This document shows, in pieces, positions 2,638 to 17,700 of a stretch of DNA of 17,700 nucleotides. The notes beneath the pieces were generated by a model, which had not been told where the DNA came from, did no database searches, and saw only the letters and a list, made by a program, of their open reading frames with translations. Location: positions 1 through 17,700 of the forward strand of contig JAHFAK010000038.1 of NCBI GenBank assembly GCA_023250585.1, written 5' to 3'. Source of the DNA: Deltaproteobacteria bacterium (lineage in GTDB: Bacteria; Bdellovibrionota_F; JAHFAK01). How positions within the stretch are numbered: the first letter of the stretch is position 1; every line of letters begins with the position of its first letter. Made by a program: the position numbers and the translations under genes.

Positions 2638-3879
2638 TTAGGGAATGCTCGATAAAAATCTATCAGCAGAAATGATTAATCCAGTATGAATTTTTTTAAA
2701 CACATTTTTTTCATGGAGTATTTGAAAAATAGGAATGTTTCCTAACAATTTTGAAGTTTCTAGAAGGTGATTTGAAATTTCCTGATTATGTAATTTCGCT
2801 TCAAAAAGGGCAAATGGTTCGCCGTTCACGAGTAAGAGAAAATCAATTTCTTTTTTATCAATGGTTCTAATATAACAAAGCTTTGTATTAAATAATCCCA
2901 TTTGTTGCCATATGAGTGAGGCGCGTAAGAGCATACAAGCAACAAGGTTTTCAAACTTTGCTGCATTATCTTTGACCCTTGTCCAATCATAAAAATACCA
3001 TTTCTTTTCTTTTTTAATCGAACGTTCTATTGTTTTTGCGTACGGATCTACTGAGAATGTTAAATATAATTTTTCAAATATTTTAATCCAATTACTTATT
3101 GTTTTGTGTGATACCTGTAAATCTTCTCTTAATGAATTTATACTCAACGGTGATCCAACTTTATTTGGGAGTAGTTCAAATAACAGTAAAAGATTATCGA
3201 GGTCACTGACATTGGTTAAGTCTCGTATATCTTGGCTAAAAATTAGATCGACATAATTATTTTGCCATTTATGTAAAAATGTTTCTTCCCCTTTTGTCAG
3301 TGGTTCAGGAAATCCACTTAATGTATATAAGAGATCATATGCTTCGCGCTCTTGATTTTTTTGGCACAGATCATACATTGAAAGTAAGGGATTATTCTTT
3401 GATCCGCTGGTCATGAGCCACAACGTTTTTAAATCGGTATTTAAAAATTCACTCAGTGAAAATGGAAGTAACGTATAGAGCAGAAACCTTCCTGATAAGC
3501 TATCCCCTTTTTTTCGTAATAAATCTAATCGAGCGCTTCCTGTTACTATAAATTTAAATTCATGCTCAAACTGATCGAAATACCCTTTTAATTTGTTTTT
3601 CCAATGAGTACTTTTATGTAATTCATCAAAGGCAATATATATTTTTTTTCGTTTTAATCCCCGCGCGATACTTTCAAAAAATACTGAATCCTTCCTGAAA
3701 AACTGTCTTGTTTGAGGGGTGTCCCAGTTAAAATATAAATCCCCACACTTATTTTTATCGAGAAACTGTTTGACTGATGTTGTTTTCCCGCTTTGTCGAG
3801 GACCTACTATGAATAGCATTTGGCGGTGCTTATCAATTTCTCGCAATGCGTATTGTTCTATATATCTTGTAGCCTTCAT
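2638..3879 (-). CDS. AAA_14/DUF4143 family ATPase (first copy)
   Basis: Predicted cytoplasmic P-loop ATPase of 413 aa. Domains in order: an AAA_14-type ATPase with Walker A GPRQSGKT (26-33), Walker B ending in FDELHK (84-89), TGSARLD (113-119) and GDSLSGR (125-131); then a winged-helix-like segment (about 243-275, around QVSHKTISNWIKIFEKL); then a C-terminal DUF4143 region with a PD-(D/E)XK-like pattern, EIDF (344-347) and FEAK (359-362). The family is widespread, often multi-copy, and of unknown function. A paralogue with the same motifs lies at 12232-13356. The start sits a few bases after a predicted promoter and has no Shine-Dalgarno sequence. Direct repeats lie just upstream. Nuclease activity is possible from the motif but unproven. 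Confidence 0.9.
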   Translation of the reverse strand: MKATRYIEQYALREIDKHRQMLFIVGPRQSGKTTSVKQFLDKNKCGDLYFNWDTPQTRQFFRKDSVFFESIARGLKRKKIYIAFDELHKSTHWKNKLKGYFDQFEHEFKFIVTGSARLDLLRKKGDSLSGRFLLYTLLPFSLSEFLNTDLKTLWLMTSGSKNNPLLSMYDLCQKNQEREAYDLLYTLSGFPEPLTKGEETFLHKWQNNYVDLIFSQDIRDLTNVSDLDNLLLLFELLPNKVGSPLSINSLREDLQVSHKTISNWIKIFEKLYLTFSVDPYAKTIERSIKKEKKWYFYDWTRVKDNAAKFENLVACMLLRASLIWQQMGLFNTKLCYIRTIDKKEIDFLLLVNGEPFALFEAKLHNQEISNHLLETSKLLGNIPIFQILHEKNVFKKIHTGLIISADRFLSSIP

Positions 3880-4754: not shown

Positions 4755-6185
4755 TTAAATAAGTTTTTTTCTTTTTGATGACGGAAGATAGCCCAACATC
4801 TCGCGATACTTTGCGATGGTTCTCCGGGCGATTTGAATATTCGCTTTTTCAAGAAACTCTAATATCTCTTGATCACTAAACGGTTTTTTTATGTTTTCGC
4901 TTTCGATAATTTCTTTGATTTTTTCTTTCACCGTTTCCGAAGCAACATTCTTGCCTTCAATTTTTTTGATACCCGAATTAAAGAAAAATTTCAGTTCAAA
5001 AATCCCTTGGGGTGTGTGCATATATTTATTGGAAGTGACACGGCTGATTGTTGATTCATGCATATCAATATCATCCGCAACTTCTTTAAGAATCATAGGT
5101 TTTAAATAGTTGATGCCTTTTTCAAAAAAATCTCGCTGAAATTTAACAATGCTCTCCGCTACTCGATAGATTGTTCTTTGGCGTTGATGAATGCTGCGAA
5201 TAAGCCACATCGCTGATTTCAATTTATCATTGATATAGTCTTTTTCATTATTCGAAGCGTGGTGCTTTGAAAGCAGATTTTTATAGGTTTGACTAATGCG
5301 TAAACGGGGGAGCCCATCTTCATTCAATACAATAATAAATTCTTCTCCAACTTTATAAATATAAATATCAGGTGTAATGTATTGGTCACTCGTTTCATAA
5401 AATGGTCGTCCAGGTTTTGGATCAAATTCGGAAATCAGCTTTACTGCCTCAATAATTTTACGCATCGGTATAGTGAGTTTTTTCTGGATAGCCTTGTAAT
5501 TTTTTATTTCAAGATCATGAAGATGGTTTCCTATAATCTGTTCGATTAACTCCTGATTTGGAAGATGTTTGCTTTGCAGGAGCAAACATTCTTTGAGATC
5601 ACGTGCTCCAACACCAATAGGATCAAAGGTTTGAATTTTTTTAAGAATTTTTTCTATTTCTTCAAGAGGCTTTTCCATTTTTTCAGAAATGTCCTCAAGG
5701 GTTGTTTTTAAATACCCGTTATCATCAATATTCCCGATAAGCGTCATACCAATCGAACGTTCTTCATCATTACGTGCGGTCATTCGTAATTGCCATAACA
5801 GATGCTGCGACAAAGTCATCTTGTTTTGTACAGTACTTTCGTACGAGGGAAGATCTGGATTTGTATTATTTATATATGATTCATTCGTGGGAGATGAATA
5901 ATTTTGGATGTAATTTTCCCAGTCGAAATCTTCTTTGCCTTCGCCTTCGCCTTTGACCTCTGCCATTTCTTTTGACTCAGCTTTTTCCTCTTTGTCCTTT
6001 TCCTCATCTTCAAGTTTTTCCTCTTCTAACTCCTCTTCAAGAACAGGATTTTCTAAAAGCTCAGCGCGGAGTAATTCAGCTAATTCAAGACGATTGAGTT
6101 GCAACAGCCGGATTGCTTGCTGCAACTGAGGAGTCATTACTAACTGTTGGCCCAATTTGAGTGTCTGTTTGAGGTCGAATCCCAT
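4755..6185 (-). CDS. rpoN: RNA polymerase sigma-54 factor
   Basis: Alternative sigma factor that directs RNA polymerase to -24/-12 promoters and needs an AAA+ activator to open DNA. Region I is present at residues 1-50 (Gln/Leu-rich, with LVMTPQLQQAIRLLQL). A very acidic Glu/Lys low-complexity region II follows (about 50-90), then the core-binding region. Near the C-terminus are the helix-turn-helix (around MHESTISRVTSNKYMHTPQG) and the RpoN box ARRTIAKYRE (453-462). At 476 aa it is full length. An in-frame stop nine bases upstream fixes the start, and no Shine-Dalgarno site precedes it. hpf follows. No sigma-54 activator is seen in the window, but a strong sigma-54 promoter is present at 17497-17512. 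Confidence 0.98.
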   Translation of the reverse strand: MGFDLKQTLKLGQQLVMTPQLQQAIRLLQLNRLELAELLRAELLENPVLEEELEEEKLEDEEKDKEEKAESKEMAEVKGEGEGKEDFDWENYIQNYSSPTNESYINNTNPDLPSYESTVQNKMTLSQHLLWQLRMTARNDEERSIGMTLIGNIDDNGYLKTTLEDISEKMEKPLEEIEKILKKIQTFDPIGVGARDLKECLLLQSKHLPNQELIEQIIGNHLHDLEIKNYKAIQKKLTIPMRKIIEAVKLISEFDPKPGRPFYETSDQYITPDIYIYKVGEEFIIVLNEDGLPRLRISQTYKNLLSKHHASNNEKDYINDKLKSAMWLIRSIHQRQRTIYRVAESIVKFQRDFFEKGINYLKPMILKEVADDIDMHESTISRVTSNKYMHTPQGIFELKFFFNSGIKKIEGKNVASETVKEKIKEIIESENIKKPFSDQEILEFLEKANIQIARRTIAKYREMLGYLPSSKRKKLI

Positions 6186-12231: not shown

Positions 12232-13356
12232 TTACATTTGTTTAAAGTAAGAAATTGGATCAATGACTTTGATATTGTTCATATCATAAGGTCGTCTGAG
12301 GTTTGCAACAATTTGAGTCGCTTTTTTTGGCATTAATTTTTGAGCATAATAAACTAATGATTTTGAAATAGATTCATCTCCATATTTGACTTCAATGATT
12401 TCTTCTAACTGATTGTCTTTAACTATTGCAAAATCTACTTCTCTGCCCTCTTTATCTCTAATGTATTTTAATTCATATCGATACCCATCTCTGTCTTCCA
12501 AAAAGTGAAGTTTTTTAATTAAAGCCGCTGCTACAAGGTTTTCAAATATAGCTCCTTCATCTCCAATGACATCGCCATTATCAAAAAAATAAACCTTTGG
12601 TGGTTTTTGGATTGCTCGAGGAAGTGATTTTGTATATGGTCTTACAATAAAAATCAGATACATTCTTTCTAATAATTCCAACCATGCTTTTGCAGTTTTT
12701 GCAGCTATTTGAATATCATTCGCAATATTGGTTAACGTAATAAGACTAGAAACTCTTTGCCGTAATAAATCCAAAAATAAATTGAGAAGCTGAATGTTTT
12801 GTATCGATTCTAAATCTCGTATGTCTTCTTTGAGTATTCTATCGTATCGTTCTCTCCTCCATCTTCTGGCTTCTTTTTCATTGCCACTCATGAATGATTC
12901 TGGAAATCCTCCAACGGTCATTAATCTTTTTAAAGCATCTTTCGATGAAATACCTGAAGGAATTTCGTCTAAAGAAAATGGATGGAGCCTCCAATAATGA
13001 TACCTACCCATTAAAGAATCGCCCCCGCGTCTATAAACATCTAAACGAGCAGATCCCGTAACAATTATTGAATGTTTATCACCCACAACATCATAAATTC
13101 CTTTAATCCACGATTTCCATTTTGGATATTTATGTAATTCGTCAAAAATAATTACTTTGTCTTCCTCCTGCCATTTTTTCTTAATAATATCTCTTCTGTT
13201 TTCATCAAAATCCCAATTCAAATATATACCTTTTGAAAAATGATCTGATAATAGTGATTTGGCAAGAGTTGTTTTTCCTACTTGTCGTGGTCCACCAATA
13301 AATACCATTTTTTTCTTTAGGTCTTTTAGTACCTCATTCATAATGTATCTCTTCAT
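12232..13356 (-). CDS. AAA_14/DUF4143 family ATPase (second copy)
   Basis: A 374-aa paralogue of the protein at 2638-3879. Walker A GPRQVGKT (22-29), Walker B with FDELHK (71-76), TGSARLD (100-106), GDSLMGR (112-118), a winged-helix-like segment (about 205-235) and the PD-(D/E)XK-like pair REVDFAI (305-311) and IEVK (321-324) occur in the same order. Shared stretches include PFSL, GFPE, DIRDL and the PYxK region before a YFFD segment. The family has no agreed function. The first ATG coincides with the predicted transcription start; Met6, with AAGAG seven bases before it, is an alternative start. Short direct repeats flank the gene, which suggests it arrived as a cassette. Confidence 0.9.
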   Translation of the reverse strand: MKRYIMNEVLKDLKKKMVFIGGPRQVGKTTLAKSLLSDHFSKGIYLNWDFDENRRDIIKKKWQEEDKVIIFDELHKYPKWKSWIKGIYDVVGDKHSIIVTGSARLDVYRRGGDSLMGRYHYWRLHPFSLDEIPSGISSKDALKRLMTVGGFPESFMSGNEKEARRWRRERYDRILKEDIRDLESIQNIQLLNLFLDLLRQRVSSLITLTNIANDIQIAAKTAKAWLELLERMYLIFIVRPYTKSLPRAIQKPPKVYFFDNGDVIGDEGAIFENLVAAALIKKLHFLEDRDGYRYELKYIRDKEGREVDFAIVKDNQLEEIIEVKYGDESISKSLVYYAQKLMPKKATQIVANLRRPYDMNNIKVIDPISYFKQM

Positions 13357-13478: not shown

Positions 13479-14033
13479 TTACAACACATTAAAATCAATT
13501 TTAAATCCTAGATTGAGATTCATATCGTTGAGATTTGAGGTGTGGATATCTCCGAAGAAAAGATAGTAATGATTTTGGAATCGTAAAAATACAATATAGA
13601 GCCCAACGTCCATTTCAAAAGTAATAAACGGAGACCCATTGAATCCCACACCAACTTCTTGTGTAGCCCCACTCTCAGGAGCAAATGAAAAACCACCAAG
13701 AAGTCCCGTATGAATTGAGTATTTTTTTTCTGGCATAAAATTATAATCAAAGCCTAAATCTGCATTAATAGTCTGAAATGAACTTACTCGGGCATTTGTT
13801 TTGGTAGAAAAAAGCGAACCATCAAATTCAGCCAAATAGGCAAGCTTTTGCATCGGATTAAGTTTTTCAGTCGGAAAGTATAGTGTTGCTTGCCCAATAA
13901 ATCCTAAGTCAGTTGATAGTTGACTTGTATCATTATAGAGCCGACGCGTGCCAAATTCGAAACTACCATTGAGAGCAAAAGAAGTTTCTGCGAAGAGAAA
14001 GAAAAGAATAATACAATACCAGAATTTTTTCAT
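13479..14033 (-). CDS. Exported protein, probable small outer-membrane beta-barrel
   Basis: A 184-aa protein not assigned to a named family. It begins MKKFWYCIILFFLFAETSFA, a clear Sec signal peptide with likely cleavage after SFA. The rest alternates polar and aromatic/hydrophobic residues in strand-like runs (for example FEFGTRRLYN, ATLYFPTE, YSIHTGLLGGFSF, LYIVFLRFQNHYYLFFGDI) and ends in LNLGFKIDFNVL, resembling a final barrel strand although the last residue is Leu rather than Phe. An upstream in-frame TTG exists, but AGGAGG (14040-14045), six bases before the ATG at 14033, decides the start. It follows two other exported-protein genes in the same direction. Barrel fold is inferred from pattern only. 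Confidence 0.72.
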   Translation of the reverse strand: MKKFWYCIILFFLFAETSFALNGSFEFGTRRLYNDTSQLSTDLGFIGQATLYFPTEKLNPMQKLAYLAEFDGSLFSTKTNARVSSFQTINADLGFDYNFMPEKKYSIHTGLLGGFSFAPESGATQEVGVGFNGSPFITFEMDVGLYIVFLRFQNHYYLFFGDIHTSNLNDMNLNLGFKIDFNVL

Positions 14034-14153: not shown

Positions 14154-15512
14154 TTATTTGTGAGTTTTTTCTGCTTCGCGGGCAGCCTTTGCTGCTTCTA
14201 CCTTTGCGGTAAACTCTATTTTAGATGCTTTTACTGCTTCTAATTGAGCTCTCCATATATTAATTTCTAATTTAATGACTTGTTGTTGACTGTCAGGAGC
14301 TCTTATTACTTGTTTTTCTAAATCCGCAAGCTTTTCATTAATTTCACGTTCTCGGGCATACAATTTTTCTTCGATTGATCTAATCTGTGAAGCTTCGAGT
14401 GGAACGGCAGTTTTTTCAGCTACTTCGGCAGTAACTTTTGGTCCTTTCATCTTTTCAATGACCTTTCCTCTTTCTAGCGTACGTTTTATCACATAAGATC
14501 GATCTGAAGTCATTTTTTCTCGGATAAATTGTTCTATAGTACCTTGATCCACTGCTTCCCATGTGGCAGTACCTTTACCTTCCGTAATTTTGGTGACAAT
14601 TGTTTCTTGATTTCTAACCGCTGTTTCAAGGTTTGCACGAGCAGATTCAATAATACTCTGAGATGTTTCTAGGGGCGTCTTAGTGATTTCTTCTAATGCA
14701 AAAGCCATCATGTGTAAGCGCCTTTTGATAACAGTACTCTTCGTATGTTCTCTATCTCCAGTGTCAAAGGCTGAGAAAGATCCACGAGATTCAGTAGATG
14801 TTGCAATTTCACGGGAGGCTTCTAAGAGGATTTGATGGATTATTTCAGTTCTTGACTGTTTCGTTCCAGAGTTCTCGGTATATATCTCAATAGCCTCGGT
14901 AAATCTTCGAGCAAAGTCATTATCAAGATGTCCATCGGTAATATATCTGATCATAACCCTCCACATATCTTGTGGATCTTTACCTTCAATTGGTTCATTA
15001 TATTTTTCGGCAAGAGCATAGAGAAATAGTATACGGTGTAAAAGAATTTCTCCTGTTCGTTTGATATTGGAAACATCCCTCCCTGCATAACCAAGCATGA
15101 ATCGTTTAAGAGAATTGTAAATACTCGAAGCTTTAGCAACCTCTTCTGTAGGGGATTTTGCTTCTTTAAGATAAGAACCAATCTCTTCTGAATGACTACC
15201 AACATAGTCATTGAGAGGACCCACAAATGTTTCACCTCTACTAAAGAGTTTCCATGCTTCCGAGTTCAATTCTGCATCTCGGAGGTTTACATAATTATCT
15301 ATAACTCTAGGTATTTTGTCAGCATCGCTCGAAAAATGAGAATCTAGGTTTCTTAACAGTTCTTCTGAATCACTAGATGCATTATAGATTACTGTTGCTT
15401 CCTCAGAAATTGGTGTTTCTGTTGGAGGCGCAAAGCTTTTTTCGCTCCACACCGTCATTCCAATCGATACTATGAAGGTGTAGATGAATACATGTTGTGA
15501 AAATTTTTTCAT
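14154..15512 (-). CDS. Exported alpha-helical protein of unknown function
   Basis: A 452-aa protein I do not recognise. Residues 1-28 are a Sec signal peptide (two lysines, hydrophobic core, ending KSFA before PPTE). The mature part is mostly helical and charged. A C-terminal coiled coil runs from about 375 to 450 and ends in an Ala/Glu/Lys-rich tail. No second membrane segment, lipobox or enzymatic motif is seen, so a soluble periplasmic or secreted protein is likely. The start is set by AAGGAG (15519-15524), six bases before the ATG. It lies 19 bases after the 629-aa exported protein gene, so the two are very probably co-transcribed. Confidence 0.75.
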   Translation of the reverse strand: MKKFSQHVFIYTFIVSIGMTVWSEKSFAPPTETPISEEATVIYNASSDSEELLRNLDSHFSSDADKIPRVIDNYVNLRDAELNSEAWKLFSRGETFVGPLNDYVGSHSEEIGSYLKEAKSPTEEVAKASSIYNSLKRFMLGYAGRDVSNIKRTGEILLHRILFLYALAEKYNEPIEGKDPQDMWRVMIRYITDGHLDNDFARRFTEAIEIYTENSGTKQSRTEIIHQILLEASREIATSTESRGSFSAFDTGDREHTKSTVIKRRLHMMAFALEEITKTPLETSQSIIESARANLETAVRNQETIVTKITEGKGTATWEAVDQGTIEQFIREKMTSDRSYVIKRTLERGKVIEKMKGPKVTAEVAEKTAVPLEASQIRSIEEKLYAREREINEKLADLEKQVIRAPDSQQQVIKLEINIWRAQLEAVKASKIEFTAKVEAAKAAREAEKTHK

Positions 15513-15531: not shown

Positions 15532-17421
15532 TTACGTTTTTTTACTTTTTTCTTCGATATCAGTTAACATATGTTCTAGTACTGTTACTAGAAACTCGTC
15601 TTTTTCCTTATCTGAATTAAACTCAAGCTTTTTGAAATCTTCATCATTCTCCACAGCAGTAAGATAGTGGCTCATTGTTTTATTTTCAGAAAATACGCGA
15701 AGATAATAAGTATCTAAAATTCCGAGAGCATCTTCGTTACCTTGGTGAGCAAAATAAAAAACTGAAGAGAATGCGTATTTAAGAACTAAGAAATCTTTAA
15801 GGATTGTGGTTGTAATAAACTCCTGTGCAATCTGGGTTCCATAGCGATTACTATTTCCCTCATCTGCCTTTTTCAGCAGCGTAGAGAGAATTTCTTTTTC
15901 TTTTTCATAGAAAGTCAGTACACTATTTTCTAGTACTTCAATTGCATGATGTTCTTCGTCAAGTGTCTTTTTAAGTTTTCCTATAGTTCCAATAAGGGTT
16001 TCCGTATGTTCTTCTTGCTCTATTTGTGTGGGAGCTTTACCTGATTCGGTAGCAAAGCTTAATTCTCCAATAACAGCGAGTTTGGCGATGCCATCTAAAT
16101 TTTTGGTATCTTTTTTAAGTAATGCTAAAGAGTATTCTGCATTTTTTAGTTTACTTGCGTATTCATGTACATGTGCCATATGAATATAGTGACTTTCGAG
16201 AAAAATATTCATCACATCATCTCGAATTTTTCCCCTTTCCTGTAAGCGTGAACTAATGCTCTCAGAGAGGCTCTCTTTTGTTCTTTCATTATGTTTTGTA
16301 TCAAGATCAGGATTATTTTTTGTAAAATGAATAGGTGTTTCGAGCGTTTGTTCTAAATACTGGAGATTAGTATCAAGTTGCATAGAATTTGCAAAAAGCC
16401 GGGGATGTTTGAGTGCGAGTGTAATATCATCTTTAATAGGTTTTGGTATAAATTGGACCCCAACTCCGGCGACTAATCCAAAAGCACTTCCTATGGCAGT
16501 TCCCAAACCAGGTGCAAGTGTACTACCTAGTTCGGTTCCTCCGACCATTGAGCCAACGATTGCCGAAACATTGATACAAAATTCACCGGTAAGAATTTTT
16601 TTGGAGAAAAAATTATACCATAAATTACTTCTCAACTCATGATTGAAAAGTAAAATTATTCCCATATTTTGAGCTGTTTGTATGAAAACTCGTCGATCTT
16701 CCTGTGCTTCTTTTGAATCAGGATTTATCAATGATTTAAAAGTACCCCACGTTAAACTCCCAATACCAAATGAGCGAGCATAATCTTCTTTAGATAATTG
16801 AAGACGAGCTTCTTCCCAGAGTTGATAACCAAAATCAAAAAGGGCGAATTTGATTGCCATGTCTATTCCCGAACTCAATAGTGATACCAATAATTTTTTT
16901 GCAATTGTATTATTGAGCATGACGCTGAGATAACTCACCGGCTTCTCAAAAATATAGCCAACTATTCCTTGGCTTGCGAGGCCCGACCATATCCCTCCGC
17001 TATCTAAAACTTTTAGTAAAACTCTTTCGATGTATTCGATTCTTTCGGCTGTATTTATTTTTTCAATTGATTGGCCAGATTTTTGAACTTCCTTAATAAC
17101 TAAAGTGATAGTGGTGACTGCCAATATGAAAAACATGGATTGAAAAGCGCTGGCAGCTAATTCTTTGGGTTTTGCTGATTTCTCCTTGAGTTGTTCCAAT
17201 GATTTGCTATTTATTTTTTTCGCAATAAGAGCATGAAATGATTGAGAGAGCGAAGCTACCTTTTGTAAAGTCCTTGTATGAATATTGGGAGTGATTTCTT
17301 GAATAGGGACAGTCTCTTGGGCAGAAGCTATAAAATAAAATGGCCCAATCGAACTATTGAGAAATATAATGAGTATAAACACATGAATAATTTTCATAGT
17401 AGAGAATGTCTTATAGTTCAT
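15532..17421 (-). CDS. Exported membrane-associated protein with glycine-rich hydrophobic segment, unknown function
   Basis: A 629-aa protein with no family I recognise. An N-terminal signal or anchor covers about 10-34 (ends IASAQE). A hydrophobic helix lies at about 92-110. Residues 284-324 form a long Gly/Ala-rich hydrophobic stretch with GxxxG-like spacing (SMVGGTELGSTLAPGLGTAI within it), resembling glycine-zipper membrane segments. The C-terminal third is helical, with likely coiled coils near 415-440 and 466-520. Neither the first ATG nor Met9 (base 17397) has a clear Shine-Dalgarno; Met9 would give a more standard signal peptide. A strong sigma-54 promoter is 76 bases upstream. It is the first gene of the exported cluster. 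Host-interaction or pore roles are speculation. Confidence 0.75.
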   Translation of the reverse strand: MNYKTFSTMKIIHVFILIIFLNSSIGPFYFIASAQETVPIQEITPNIHTRTLQKVASLSQSFHALIAKKINSKSLEQLKEKSAKPKELAASAFQSMFFILAVTTITLVIKEVQKSGQSIEKINTAERIEYIERVLLKVLDSGGIWSGLASQGIVGYIFEKPVSYLSVMLNNTIAKKLLVSLLSSGIDMAIKFALFDFGYQLWEEARLQLSKEDYARSFGIGSLTWGTFKSLINPDSKEAQEDRRVFIQTAQNMGIILLFNHELRSNLWYNFFSKKILTGEFCINVSAIVGSMVGGTELGSTLAPGLGTAIGSAFGLVAGVGVQFIPKPIKDDITLALKHPRLFANSMQLDTNLQYLEQTLETPIHFTKNNPDLDTKHNERTKESLSESISSRLQERGKIRDDVMNIFLESHYIHMAHVHEYASKLKNAEYSLALLKKDTKNLDGIAKLAVIGELSFATESGKAPTQIEQEEHTETLIGTIGKLKKTLDEEHHAIEVLENSVLTFYEKEKEILSTLLKKADEGNSNRYGTQIAQEFITTTILKDFLVLKYAFSSVFYFAHQGNEDALGILDTYYLRVFSENKTMSHYLTAVENDEDFKKLEFNSDKEKDEFLVTVLEHMLTDIEEKSKKT

Positions 17422-17496
17422 ATTTTACTAATATTAATTAAATTTTTGTTATCTTTAGGAAATTAGTTTCATAATAACCCAACTAATATAATGCTA

Positions 17497-17512
17497 TGCA
17501 ATATATGTGCCA
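17497..17512 (-). promoter_or_regulatory. Sigma-54 (-24/-12) promoter upstream of the exported-protein cluster
   Basis: On the minus strand the site reads TGGCACATATATTGCA, which fits the sigma-54 consensus TGGCACG-N4-TTGC(A/T) at every defined position except the G after TGGCAC. The invariant GG and GC are exactly 10 bases apart. Transcription would start near 17486, about 65 bases before the 629-aa gene. Sigma-54 itself (rpoN) is encoded at 4755-6185. No activator binding site was identified upstream. Confidence 0.75.
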
Positions 17513-17581
17513 CATTAACAACTAAATATAAGTGTATCAAGGGAAAGTTATAATCTGTATATTAATGGGAATGTTGTTTTT

Positions 17582-17700
17582 TCATGCAAAATGACAGCTT
17601 ACTTCTCGATTCTCGACAATTCGTTTGATAGGTTTTTCTTTCTGACATCGTTCTTCGGCAAAAGGACATCGTGTGCGATACACGCATCCGCTTGGAGGGT
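17582..17700 (-). CDS. Oligopeptide/dipeptide ABC transporter ATP-binding protein, C-terminal end
   Basis: Only the last 38 codons are in the window; the rest lies beyond base 17700. The visible sequence has [18 protein letters not shown] and later REVSCHFA before the stop, which matches the cysteine-containing C-terminal extension (oligo_HPY type) of OppD/OppF/DppD/DppF ATPases. These power uptake of peptides through an inner-membrane permease. Which of the paired ATPases it is cannot be told. The gene ends about 70 bases before the sigma-54 promoter of the next cluster, in the same direction. Confidence 0.88.

Follow-up and report, generated by a model that had tools for sequence, protein, structure and literature searches.

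Sigma-54 promoters have an upstream enhancer, often together with an IHF site, and IHF is not strictly required. The aid that IHF gives to DNA looping at these promoters is well established (PMC7057263). Functions of the envelope, of lipoproteins and of the cell exterior have been linked to sigma-54 promoters, among which the distance to the gene start separates true sites from the others (PMC3162934). A further study (PMC12316311) describes sigma-54 regulons that vary in content from lineage to lineage, with uncharacterised periplasmic proteins and lipoproteins among their members.

The genome considered here (2.24 Mb in 164 contigs) shares with the -24/-12 promoters that work with enhancer-binding proteins (EBPs) and IHF (PMC7057263) the TGGCAY-N5-TTGCW core, its position ahead of genes, rpoN and the EBPs themselves, and an IHF-like site precedes the -24 box in many of its promoters. 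The promoter of the window (the whole 17.7-kb stretch of DNA that was analysed, which is contig C92 in its entirety) differs from this mechanism in having neither an IHF-like site nor an identified enhancer. As in the exterior theme of PMC3162934, the sites of this genome precede genes for exported proteins, but in this case many of the target genes encode exported proteins with no known domains, and the sites are about twice as dense as in any other of the 98 genomes scanned. Uncharacterised exported proteins and lipoproteins are also what connects these targets with the lineage-specific regulons of PMC12316311. The kind of control and the promoter class are known; the heaviness of sigma-54 use in this organism is not ordinary, and the site density and exported bias in a small genome are the more interesting result. 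The single window site matters little, being one more plausible case of a promoter class that is well understood. What matters more is that, in a small genome whose phylum has been poorly sampled, a large share of the exported proteins appears to depend on sigma-54 and its activators, an IHF-like element recurring at the promoters. This pattern makes a strong case for the published idea of exterior control by sigma-54 (PMC3162934), and supplies about 70 promoters, with their genes, ready for study.

A sigma-54 core upstream of an exported-protein gene

The minus strand of the window contains TGGCACATATATTGCA (letters 17512-17497), a GG-N10-GC site in which TGGCAC and TTGCA are both intact. It satisfies the TGGCAY-N5-TTGCW pattern, with the -24 GG and the -12 GC ten bases apart, and a pattern scan showed that it is the only exact core in the window. 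From base composition, chance should yield 0.02 exact matches to this pattern in the window, counting both strands; for the 160-bp gap that holds the site (Table 1), coding strand only, the figure drops to about 3e-5. The predicted +1 is at about 17486, which is 65 nt from the ATG at 17421, and the leader would measure about 89 nt if translation starts at the ATG at 17397. The -12 element lies about 77 nt ahead of the ATG, on the same strand as the 629-aa gene, and both distance and orientation agree with the gene-start rule of PMC3162934. Sigma-70-like sites in the gap were no commoner than in shuffled sequences. The original prediction had placed a sigma-54-type site about 65 bases before a gene devoid of a convincing sigma-70 promoter, with rpoN in the same window, and it holds on each of these points.

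The gene upstream of the gap ends in a sequence that resembles an oligopeptide ABC transporter ATPase at its C-terminus. The contig ends 188 bp upstream of the site, and no enhancer was recognised within those 188 bp. A CGTGT-N5-ACACG dyad (17670-17684) was considered as an enhancer and rejected, given that such dyads are expected by chance according to a rough count over the arm lengths and gaps tried.

Table 1. Coordinates of the features discussed (window positions, unless a contig or locus is named).
Feature	Position	Strand	Remarks
Sigma-54 promoter core TGGCAC-ATATA-TTGCA (-24/-12)	17497..17512	-	exact match
Intergenic region, 160 bp, 23% G+C	17422..17581	-	holds the window sigma-54 site
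3' end of upstream gene	17583..17700	-	sequence read
629-aa protein, signal peptide, glycine-rich hydrophobic stretch	15532..17421	-	likely start 17397
452-aa exported protein, own Shine-Dalgarno AAGGAG	14154..15512	-	19 bp after the 629-aa gene
184-aa exported protein, strong Shine-Dalgarno GAGGAGG	13479..14033	-	outer-membrane-barrel-like by eye
rpoN; AID, CBD and DBD all present	4755..6185	-	Pfam
Near-identical gene starts, MKRAFITEHGPLVRRLSELRKLKGSTITIHIYGESG	G000 C14 end (L048), C91 end (L077), C64 end (L064), C75 start (L068), C54 end (L062)
ACAAAATGT and TGTA-N10-TACA dyads	L070, L085, L090, L101 (~-75); L052, L076, L081, L184, L193

Downstream genes

The cluster consists of three consecutive genes whose products, of 629, 452 and 184-189 aa, each carry a signal peptide. 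The ATG at 17397 opens a typical signal peptide (MKIIHVFILIIF...) and may be the true start of the first gene. The short gap between the first two genes suggests a single transcript, and they are probably co-transcribed. Co-transcription of the third is uncertain, because a gap of 120 bp precedes it. No Shine-Dalgarno sequence was found at either candidate start of the 629-aa gene (17421 and 17397), as the original prediction had noted. By the same test, one is also absent from about 62% of background genes and from rpoN. Since most genes of this genome do without it, the missing ribosome site is uninformative, and we rejected it as evidence for the promoter.

Homologues outside the own genome were found neither for the 629-aa protein (59 genomes, GTDB contigs and IMG/VR viral contigs) nor for the 452-aa protein (41 genomes), and none of the three proteins gave a match in NCBIfam or a convincing one in Pfam. 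AlphaFold2 without an alignment yielded unusable models of the 629-aa and 184-aa proteins (pLDDT 36 and 35, respectively). For the suggested link of the cluster to host interaction, nothing was found in favour. The same contig also contains two ATPase genes with AAA_14 and DUF4143 domains, at window positions 2638-3879 and 12232-13356 (minus).

Genome-wide sites and the bias of their targets

The exact pattern occurs 71 times in the 2.24 Mb, as compared to 2 occurrences of a reversed-pattern control; when up to one mismatch is allowed, 283 sites are obtained against 61, an excess of roughly 220. Nearly every exact site is immediately followed by a gene in the same orientation. Both their number and their density (32 per Mb) are the highest among 98 genomes scanned alike, and the runner-up, G043, reaches about 15 per Mb with 53 sites in 3.6 Mb. 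The one further genome of the phylum that was compared, G001, contains 16 exact sites vs. 11 for the control, which is hardly any excess; therefore, it does not share the expansion.

The genes behind the sites are predominantly those of exported proteins. In fact, a signal peptide or a lipobox was assigned to 49 of the 61 scorable downstream genes, as compared to 40 out of 141 background genes taken from 20 stretches (28%; Fisher p = 6e-12) and to 19 of the 71 background genes with an upstream gap of at least 80 bp (p = 5e-10), the calls being made by a simple home-made heuristic under the same rule for both gene sets. The bias is not a quirk of this genome alone, since 9 of the 16 genes scored behind sites in G043 are exported too, and the exterior-control theme (PMC3162934) therefore fits. 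These data point to a large regulon, with about 70 strong promoters and perhaps 220 altogether, that mainly serves exported proteins and lipoproteins.

Many of the downstream proteins have no Pfam family. Those that could be assigned include proteins with thrombospondin type 3 repeats, MopE-like metal-binding repeats, PKD, lamin-tail and TPR domains, proteases of the papain, S41 and trypsin-like types, a type II secretion secretin, ComEC-like and ComM-like competence proteins, and a protein kinase. The ComEC-like gene (Competence and DUF4131 domains) follows the exact site at L055:196-211 and the ComM-like gene (Mg_chelatase) that of L184 at 501, on the reverse strand. The presence of an exact site before each suggests that DNA uptake may be under sigma-54 control in this genome.

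RpoN and its activators

The rpoN product scores 454.8 bits against TIGR02395 (cut-off 277), and its closest named relatives are RpoN proteins of the deltaproteobacterial type. AAA+ EBPs with a GAFTGA-type loop are encoded in the genome, where 11 strong activator domains were detected; most of the EBPs whose domains were read by eye have a response-regulator receiver, and one has an FHA domain. Sigma-54, together with an activator encoded elsewhere, had been proposed to switch on exported proteins of unknown function. Considering the excess of exact sites over the control, the 11 EBPs and the overwhelming position of the sites before exported-protein genes, this is very likely in general and likely for the window site.

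The NtrC-type activator at L068:239-1561 (minus) has GAYTDA in place of the usual GAFTGA loop, and for this reason may not open sigma-54 promoters. Five contig ends carry near-identical starts of one gene (MKRAFITEHGPLVRRLSELRKLKGSTITIHIYGESG...), each behind an exact sigma-54 site; the assembly lacks the remainder of the gene, and four of the five copies adjoin an NtrC-type activator gene. The gene apparently encodes an activator devoid of a receiver domain, and seems to be present in several copies that are controlled by sigma-54.

An IHF-like element at the sister promoters

A model restricted by position, for which a motif spotted by eye served as the seed, described a TAAC-N3-TTRAAATTAT element some 33-51 nt ahead of the -24 box, with a log-likelihood of 172 as compared to 50-71 for shuffled sequences; unrestricted motif discovery returned AT-rich noise only. 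In cross-validation, half of the sites other than that of the window had the element at p < 0.05, and strong matches cluster at -50 to -31. Background sequence gave 0.7 strong matches per 10 kb, several of which again precede a degenerate sigma-54 box. The element agrees with the IHF consensus. An IHF-beta-like gene, just below the NCBIfam cut-off, is present in the genome, and the two together fit sigma-54 promoters of standard architecture.

The window site has no such element (score p = 0.66). The element is common in the regulon and not universal, and 22% of the other sites score as low as that of the window. The flanks of the window site, scored at the non-core positions, look more like background than like the regulon model (log2 -3.1), which puts it in place 62 of 65; with the full matrix it comes 65th of 70. 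The exact core followed by the gene of an exported protein is, on the other hand, the regular arrangement of the regulon. The site had been called near-perfect, and this is right for the core and wrong for the full context, in which it is among the weaker members. The window promoter is therefore a somewhat atypical member of the regulon.

How the window promoter may work

We consider it very probable that the window site works as a sigma-54 promoter of the 629-aa gene, and probable that it also serves the 452-aa gene. RNA polymerase with RpoN would bind its -24/-12 box as a closed complex and wait there until an AAA+ EBP encoded elsewhere, most likely a phosphorylated NtrC-type response regulator, opens the promoter upon a signal, leading to expression of the first one or two genes of the cluster.

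The main alternative is that the match is accidental, or is the remnant of a sigma-54 promoter that has decayed, and that the gene is driven by an AT-rich promoter of the sigma-70 type in the same gap. The weak flanks and the missing IHF-like element would be in keeping with it, as would the expectation that about 2-3 of the 71 exact sites are accidental, at least one of them (L073, inside a gene) looking false. Few of such accidental sites, however, should fall in a correctly oriented 5' gap, where the chance expectation for an exact core is minute; moreover, the downstream gene is typical of the regulon and the gap is not enriched in sigma-70-like sites. When all this is put together in rough odds (71 sites vs. 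2-3, place, strand, flanks and IHF-like element), the window site is clearly more likely to be real than to be accidental, and we regard chance or decay as unlikely. That sigma-54 acts at the site as a repressor or roadblock, or sits poised with no cognate activator so that the gene is not driven, might explain the lack of an IHF-like element and of a recognisable enhancer, but is highly improbable, because other promoters of the set also have no IHF-like element and enhancers may sit beyond the contig end.

Taking the functional promoter as the preferred reading, a broader picture can be proposed tentatively, and we would put it somewhat below an even chance: in this deep lineage sigma-54 may have become the main sigma factor for exported proteins, with some 220 promoters in a 2.2-Mb genome, many of them having a built-in bend of the IHF type, and about 12 activators, including the multicopy, near-identical activator gene under its own sigma-54 promoters. 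The operon of the window would then be an IHF-independent member.

A second promoter class

In a smaller class of promoters, ACAAAATGT is found at -74 to -76, together with TGTA-N10-TACA dyads (Table 1). Upstream of this subset of sites, both are about 16-22 times denser than in background stretches, the latter being mostly coding. These sequences are a candidate binding site of one activator, on account of their shared position and palindrome and not of their score, since shuffled sequences gave dyads that scored similarly. The leaders in L101 (downstream of the site at 302, reverse strand), L090 and L070 contain GAGRCTGTTGYGMAAT, and in L101 an inverted copy, ATTTCGCAACAGTCTC, is found about 230 nt beyond it, like the putative ends of a small mobile element inserted beside the promoter.
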